Positions 32,981 through 54,144 of a DNA stretch of 64,000 nt are shown one piece after another. This DNA is from Thermococcus onnurineus NA1 (GTDB taxonomy: Archaea; Methanobacteriota_B; Thermococci; Thermococcales; Thermococcaceae), in NCBI RefSeq assembly GCF_000018365.1, contig NC_011529.1:930001-994000 (forward strand), read 5' to 3'. The first letter of the stretch is position 1, and each line of letters starts with the position of its first letter. The position numbers and the translations under genes were made by a program. The notes beneath the pieces are model-generated. The model made no database searches, had not been told where the DNA came from, and saw only the letters and a program-made list of their open reading frames with translations.

Positions 32981-33058
32981 GGGCCGGTAGCTCAGCATGG
33001 TTAGAGCGCGGGACTCTTAATCCCGTGGTCGGGGGTTCGAATCCCCCCCGGCCCGCCA
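32981..33058 (+). tRNA. tRNA-Lys (anticodon CTT), CCA encoded
   Basis: The acceptor stem is GGGCCGG/CCGGCCC, the anticodon arm CGGGA-CTCTTAA-TCCCG has anticodon CTT, the T arm is GGGGG-TTCGAAT-CCCCC, discriminator G, and CCA is encoded at 33056-33058. There is no intron. It reads AAG lysine codons. Confidence 0.95.
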
Positions 33059-52388: not shown

Positions 52389-53231
52389 ATGCGTGCTTTT
52401 ATTTCCCTTGACCTAGAAGGTCTGCCTTACATAGTCAGCAGGGAGCACCTTTTCGTAAAGGGGGCTCTCTACTCTGAGGCCAGGAGAATAGCAACCGAGA
52501 TAGTCAAAGTAACGGCCGAAGCACTTCACGAGAACGGTTTCGACGAAATTATTGTTGCCGATAGCCACGGACCAATGGTGAACATCCTCCCGGAGGAGAT
52601 GCCCGAGTACGTTGAGCTTGTCCGCGGCTTTCCGAGGCCGCTCAGCATGGTGGCCTTCGCCAAAGACAGCGACGCTGCGCTCTTCCTTGGCTATCACGCC
52701 AAGGCTGGAACGGCTTATGCAACCTTTGACCACACATACAGCGGCGCTTCAATAGACAGGCTGGAAATCAATGGCGTTGAGGTTAGCGAGTTCCTCCTGA
52801 ATGCCTATCTCCTGGGAAGCTGGAATGTTCCGGTGATTCTCGTAGGTGGAGACAAAAAGCTCATAGAGGACGATGTGAGAAAGTTCACACCCTGGGTAGA
52901 GGGAGTTGTTTTCAAGGAGTCGCCCTCGCGCTACTCTGCCAAGAGTCCTAGTATGGTGAAGCTGAAGAATGAGCTCAGGGAAAGTGTTTCCAGAGCCGTT
53001 GATAGACTTAAGAACGGCGAGGCAAAGCCGCTCAAGACAGAAGAGCCGGTTCACGTTAAAGTCCGCTTCCTGAGGAGCGACATGGCAGATACCGCCGAGC
53101 TTCTTCCGTTCATCAAGAGACTGGACGGAAAGACTGTTGAGTTCAAGGCAAAGACTGTTGAAGAAGCGTACAGGGTGTTCGAGCTCCTTACCCTTGCATC
53201 CGCGGGTGTAAGCGCAATAGTCATGAGGTAA
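52389..53231 (+). CDS. M55 family D-aminopeptidase (DppA-like)
   Basis: A 280-residue zinc peptidase. ISLDLEGLPYIV (Asp and Glu ligands), VADSHGPMVN, LFLGYHAKAGTAYATFDHTYSG and RLEINGVEVSE match the DppA ligands and the Cys-less active-site region; the family removes N-terminal D-amino acids from peptides. ATG 52389 follows GGTGGTGACC. The upstream frame to 52257 is not used because it crosses a promoter (AAAACTTTTCTTTTATC at about 52350). Substrate in Thermococcus unknown. Confidence 0.9.
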   Translation: MRAFISLDLEGLPYIVSREHLFVKGALYSEARRIATEIVKVTAEALHENGFDEIIVADSHGPMVNILPEEMPEYVELVRGFPRPLSMVAFAKDSDAALFLGYHAKAGTAYATFDHTYSGASIDRLEINGVEVSEFLLNAYLLGSWNVPVILVGGDKKLIEDDVRKFTPWVEGVVFKESPSRYSAKSPSMVKLKNELRESVSRAVDRLKNGEAKPLKTEEPVHVKVRFLRSDMADTAELLPFIKRLDGKTVEFKAKTVEEAYRVFELLTLASAGVSAIVMR

Positions 53232-53261
53232 AGCTTAAGTTTCCGGATGGCTAACACTATG

Positions 53262-53336
53262 ACGCCCCCGGGAAACCGCGGGGAGGAGAGCGCCTCGGCG
53301 AGCTGTGACCTCCCTTCGCTCCCCGGGGGCACATCA
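53262..53336 (+). ncRNA. H/ACA guide sRNA (pseudouridylation guide)
   Basis: The lower stem is GCCCCCGGG (53264-53272) with CCCGGGGGC (53322-53330), 9 bp. An internal pocket has AAACCGCG on the 5' side and TTCGCTC on the 3' side. The upper stem is GGGAGG/CCTCCC (53281-53286 / 53309-53314). A K-turn-like UGA/GA element and a CGC-CTCG-GCG tip follow. ACA (53331-53333) stands right after the lower stem, 16 nt from the top of the pocket, the archaeal 14-16 nt rule. TATA-like GCTTAAG at 53234-53240 is about 25 bp before the expected 5' end. The predicted target is GAGCGAA-U-N-CGCGGUUU. Confidence 0.85.
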
Positions 53337-53400
53337 CCAGTATACATTCAAAGTCGATATTCTTTTATACCACACAAGCGTAAATTCAGTGGTGACCAGT

Positions 53401-54144
53401 GTGCAGAGAAAAATACTTACTGCCCTGATGATCGGGATTATGATAGGCTTCGTACTTGGAGCACTCTTCTCATATTCAAGTGAGGATTCAGCCAATCAAC
53501 TGCCGGAAATGAGAGTATGCCCGATAGTAGACTACAAAATCCTCGAAGGATACACTATCCCGCTGGGCAGGACAATCTCAAATGAAACGGAAGTTGCCGA
53601 AGCCCTTGAGAGAGCATACATAGAGCAGAAGAGCCCAAACTACCCCCTAGAAATTTTGAAAGAGCTCTACCGGGCTAAAAAACCAAACGCGGAACTTTTT
53701 GGAATATCATACGTTTTCAAAAACAACACACTAGGATACGGGAGGTACGGCCTAAGGAATGGCACCACTGAGGGAGACTTTACCTTCGAACCATTTACGG
53801 AAGATGAGAGTCAGAGAATAGACGGAGTGGGCCTCATAACAAAGAGATGGGCCGTGATTTTCCTCAGCATCTACGATGCAGAAGGAGCAAACAACGTAGA
53901 GACCATAACCGTGGAAGTCCCGATCGAATGGAAGCGAGTGTATTACAGCGGAAGCGGGAAGATTGCAGTAACCTCACCCAATTATGTAAAAGTTAAGCTT
54001 CCAGAGAACCGGCGGATCAACTACCTCGTACTGGCCTTTCTGACCGACGGAAAGCTCCGGAGCATGGGAGACATCCCCAAGATTACCGTAAGAGTGAATG
54101 GAATGGACTCAGTGCTTTCCAAGCCTCACTCCTCTTCCACATAA
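53401..54144 (+). CDS. exported or membrane-anchored protein, unknown
   Basis: A 247-residue protein with an N-terminal helix (ALMIGIMIGFVLGALFSYSS) that acts as signal anchor, and a beta-rich ectodomain of about 215 residues (YYSGSGKIAVTSPNYVKVK; YLVLAFLTDGKLRSM). No motif identifies it. GTG 53401 follows GGTGACCA; TCTTTTATACC at about 53361 is the likely TATA box. It is convergent with hef, overlapping it by 19 bp. Function unknown. Confidence 0.6.
   Translation: MQRKILTALMIGIMIGFVLGALFSYSSEDSANQLPEMRVCPIVDYKILEGYTIPLGRTISNETEVAEALERAYIEQKSPNYPLEILKELYRAKKPNAELFGISYVFKNNTLGYGRYGLRNGTTEGDFTFEPFTEDESQRIDGVGLITKRWAVIFLSIYDAEGANNVETITVEVPIEWKRVYYSGSGKIAVTSPNYVKVKLPENRRINYLVLAFLTDGKLRSMGDIPKITVRVNGMDSVLSKPHSSST

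Follow-up and report, generated by a model that had tools for sequence, protein, structure and literature searches.

Does the GC-rich interval that follows a dppA-like gene in Thermococcus onnurineus NA1, and that looks like empty sequence between two protein-coding genes, hold a guide RNA gene of its own, and which nucleotide would such an RNA guide? The interval lies in a window of 64,000 nucleotides (contig NC_011529.1, positions 930,001 to 994,000), to which all coordinates below refer. A sequence-only reading of the locus had placed at 53262-53336 an unannotated H/ACA guide RNA with its own promoter, built from a 9-bp GC stem, a two-sided pocket, an upper stem with a K-turn-like element and an ACA box 16 nt from the top of the pocket; it had asked for a covariance-model search and had made its case depend on compensatory changes in relatives and on an rRNA target.

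A member of the Pab160 family

The segment 53264-53333 of the forward strand is a real archaeal H/ACA guide RNA gene and a member of the Pab160 family. A cmscan search of the whole window matched this segment to Rfam RF02796 (Pab160 H/ACA sRNA) with 84.4 bits (E 1.8e-13) against a gathering score of 47.4 bits, the match running over the full length of the model (positions 1-68 of 68). Only one other Rfam match in the whole window exceeded its gathering score, a tRNA at 32981-33055. Open reading frames that overlie the RNA on both strands were dismissed as mechanical. The claim of an H/ACA guide RNA is thus upheld by an end-to-end match to a curated model, by compensatory changes and by a plausible 16S target, and every structural part that had been proposed is present within the matched segment. 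The proposed interval fell on the right locus and was a few nucleotides too wide. The implied novelty of the RNA does not stand, as Pab160-type genes are an ordinary, already catalogued family carried by the majority of genomes in its archaeal order. RF02796 scored above its cut-off in 85 of the 115 phylum genomes searched (72 of the 84 of good quality), while M. jannaschii alone among the control genomes gave a match. One genome, G091, carries two different Pab160 copies (L068, G091:C27:139122-139188, being the locus concerned), for which an estimated contamination of 6% is a likely cause.

Pab160 is an H/ACA sRNA of Pyrococcus abyssi and the functional homologue of P. furiosus Pf9 (PMC3726423; PMC4652768), the latter having been used in structural work on H/ACA RNPs (PDB 2RFK), although the two are reported to differ in internal-loop subfamily (55 for Pab160, 65 for Pf9). 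The window copy shares with Pab160 both stems, the pocket strands, the K-turn and the ACA over its whole length and differs from it in an additional A at 53287, 5' in the K-turn, where a few near relatives also carry an extra nucleotide, and in its upper-stem pairs, which are GGGAGG/CCUCCC and not of the commoner GGGGAU type. In T. kodakarensis, all H/ACA genes are reported as orthologues of Pyrococcus ones (PMC4652768), and seven H/ACA sRNAs were detected there by dRNA-seq (PMC4247193).

Table 1. Features of the H/ACA sRNA locus (window coordinates) and the evidence for each.
Feature	Position	Strand	Evidence or detail
BRE/TATA-like promoter element AAA-GCTTAAG	53230..53239	+	conserved upstream of 68 loci
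Pab160-family H/ACA sRNA, entire RNA	53264..53333	+	cmscan RF02796, covariation
Lower stem, 9 bp	5' arm 53264..53272; 3' arm 53322-53330	+	4 pairs with two-sided changes
5' guide strand AAACCG, followed by (C)	53273..53278	+	AACCG invariant in 34/34 homologues; target scan
Upper (GA) stem	5' arm 53280..53286; 3' arm 53309-53315	+	two-sided changes in 5/7 pairs, 95% of cells paired
K-turn	53287..53308	+	GC/GC C-stem and UGA invariant in 34/34 homologues
K-turn parts	A insertion 53287; GA 53288-53289; 3-nt bulge 53304-53306; GA 53307-53308		also GC/GC C-stem
3' guide strand CGCUCC, preceded by (UU)	53317..53322	+	invariant in 34/34 homologues; target scan
ACA box	53331..53333	+	invariant in 34/34 homologues
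Candidate substrate sequence for the guide RNA			GGAGCGUGCGGUUU

Covariation and fold

The compensatory changes on which the sequence-only reading had relied were found in an alignment of 34 distinct homologues made without awareness of structure. In these, 93.3% of cells pair in the proposed fold, and two-sided changes occur in nine of the 18 pairs; they fill 54 cells, as compared with a shuffle expectation of 18.6. None of 500 shuffles reached the observed covariation score, and sliding the partners by one to three columns reduced the nine two-sided pairs to between none and two. Because the alignment is not structure-aware, it gives too low a count for the two outermost pairs of the lower stem. 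The covariation is real and supports both stems. While the stems vary, AACCG, CGCUCC, the UGA of the K-turn, the GC/GC C-stem and the ACA stay constant throughout the sample.

The fold itself has an energy of -44.9 kcal/mol (z = -3.6), equalled by none of 200 shuffles, and the GC content of the RNA is 75.7% as compared with 50.0% for the window. This high GC content, and nothing more, would favour a chance GC-rich inverted repeat, a reading whose probability we regard as negligible in view of the fold statistics and the homologues in 85 genomes, and which the covariation and the RF02796 family match have already refuted.

Archaeal box H/ACA RNAs carry an ACA/ANA box 14-16 nt from the position of the target U in the pocket (PMC7991803). 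Here the ACA lies 16 nt from the pocket-closing U52, as the sequence-only reading had measured; its distance from the first paired guide base, beside the target U, is 14 nt, and both spacings agree with this rule. Above the upper stem, the invariant UGA and GC C-stem (n = 34) form the K-turn or K-loop of an archaeal H/ACA RNA, which by analogy with the Pab160 family is the expected site for L7Ae.

A conserved, probable promoter

The TATA-like GCTTAAG, at 53233-53239, stands 25-31 nt before the start of the RNA, the right distance for the promoter that had been proposed, and the extended element AAA-GCTTAAG takes in the final bases of the upstream gene's stop codon. This gene encodes a D-aminopeptidase of the Peptidase_M55 (DppA) family and ends at 53231. 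The next gene probably starts near GTG 53392, after a TTTATA-like box of its own at about 53364-53369, which puts the RNA between the dppA-like gene and its neighbour, as had been supposed. In a profile of 68 upstream regions, anchored on the RNA and with no further alignment, information peaks at -33 to -31 (AAA) and at -28 to -24 (T-T-T/A-A-A/G), with little from -23 to -11. A BRE/TATA-like element is found some 25-33 nt upstream in most of these 68 loci, including those with a different neighbouring gene or an inverted RNA gene; where the arrangement is the opposite one, this element falls on the stop codon of hef, a helicase gene. Its retention through rearrangement and inversion argues that the element is most likely part of the RNA gene and not of a neighbour, and, judged by this conservation, the RNA probably has its own promoter. 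A scan with bacterial sigma-70 promoter and terminator patterns found nothing, no T-run terminator included.

The same comparison bears on whether the hairpin could instead be a cis-acting leader or terminator of a neighbouring mRNA, with no separate RNA. The position of the RNA between two genes would suit such a role, and other snoRNA-like K-turns in 5' regions of T. kodakarensis have been suggested as cis elements (PMC4247193). Nevertheless, the RNA and its TATA element stay together across species despite differing neighbours and orientations, conservation extends to the guide strands and is not confined to the stems, and the scan with bacterial patterns found no T-run terminator. We consider a cis-regulatory role very improbable, and dropped it because the RNA is conserved through inversion.

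The predicted rRNA target

When the 16S and 23S rRNA of the same genome were scanned with the two pocket strands, the best site was U899 of 16S rRNA, GGAGCG-U-G-CGGUUU, in which an unpaired UN is flanked by 6+6 contiguous pairs, with 14 nt to the ACA. AAACCG pairs with CGGUUU on the 3' side of the target U, and CGCUCC pairs with GGAGCG on its 5' side. This is a plausible rRNA target; of the target string GAGCGAA-UN-CGCGG that had been suggested, the GAGCG part was right and the remainder wrong. We take U899 to be E. coli U950, counting from the standard 907-926 primer site. Sites in P. abyssi were reportedly assigned by Muller in 2008. The site is identical in seven further 16S genes read from six genomes; in one additional fetched 16S gene, L084, the search string was not matched.

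By itself the match has modest significance: a score as good came from 23 of 500 shuffles of the rRNA and from 14 of 300 shuffles of the guide (p about 0.05). Such values leave room for the alternative that the RNA acts mainly on one or several other rRNA positions, with U899 as a secondary site or a match by chance, and the literature allows that a single archaeal H/ACA motif may serve several target positions and that two guides may share one position. We nonetheless think this alternative unlikely, since the next site reaches a score of 20.8 as compared with 32 for U899, and the guide bases complementary to U899 are invariant.

Cbf5, Nop10, Gar1 and L7Ae are each encoded in the genome above the curated cut-off. 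What the analysis shows is the family membership, fold, covariation, promoter conservation and presence of these four proteins; that the RNA is transcribed, assembles into an RNP and directs the modification of U899 is inferred. We are close to certain that the locus holds a stand-alone H/ACA sRNA gene with a single hairpin, orthologous to Pab160/Pf9, that would guide this modification. The RNA would probably be transcribed from its own BRE/TATA promoter; L7Ae would bind at the K-turn, the ACA and the pocket would be bound by Cbf5-Nop10-Gar1, and pairing of the pocket strands with the 16S rRNA would present U899 to Cbf5 for conversion to pseudouridine. A known guide RNA thereby gains one correctly placed copy and a candidate 16S site, U899 (E. 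coli U950), together with a comparison in which the covariation is clean and the promoter conserved.

Orientation and apparent absence of the gene

The RNA gene sits between convergent M55 and hef genes. Among the 68 loci, which are not all independent, some being duplicates from one genome, the RNA is oriented as in the window in 37 and in the opposite way in 19, with other or unresolved neighbours in 12. A quick tree of the M55 proteins needs five changes of orientation, at least three of them forced by well-supported branches, so that repeated flipping of the RNA gene seems likely on this comparison, though transfer of the M55 gene or rearrangement of the flanks could mimic it.

Two relatives, G019 (closed) and G022 (70 contigs), both 99% complete, gave no Pab160 gene by blastn or by the family model at a lax threshold, which returned nothing near the cut-off, and the guide-strand pattern had only chance-level matches there, in unrelated sequence. 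Both keep an intact 16S site as well as Cbf5, Nop10, Gar1 and L7Ae; G019 is without an M55 match, and G022 has its M55 gene divided between two frames. A tentative reading, possible rather than probable, is that Pab160 is a small autonomous cassette of promoter and RNA that has flipped in place more than once between M55 and hef within the genus, and that at least two relatives retaining its intact 16S target and the H/ACA proteins have lost it. If so, U950 in relatives lacking Pab160 may stay without the modification or depend on a different guide, and, if confirmed, two apparent natural losses with an intact target would allow ribosomes with and without this modification to be compared.

The two orientations in different species were seen when the window was set beside other loci (L010, L032, L049, L069, L042 and others) from the end of M55 to the end of hef. 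Between the RNA and hef the window encodes, at 53392-54144, a 250-aa protein without a Pfam match; of the other fetched loci, only four (L059, L065, L053 and L070) encode related proteins, and L067 gives a weak match.
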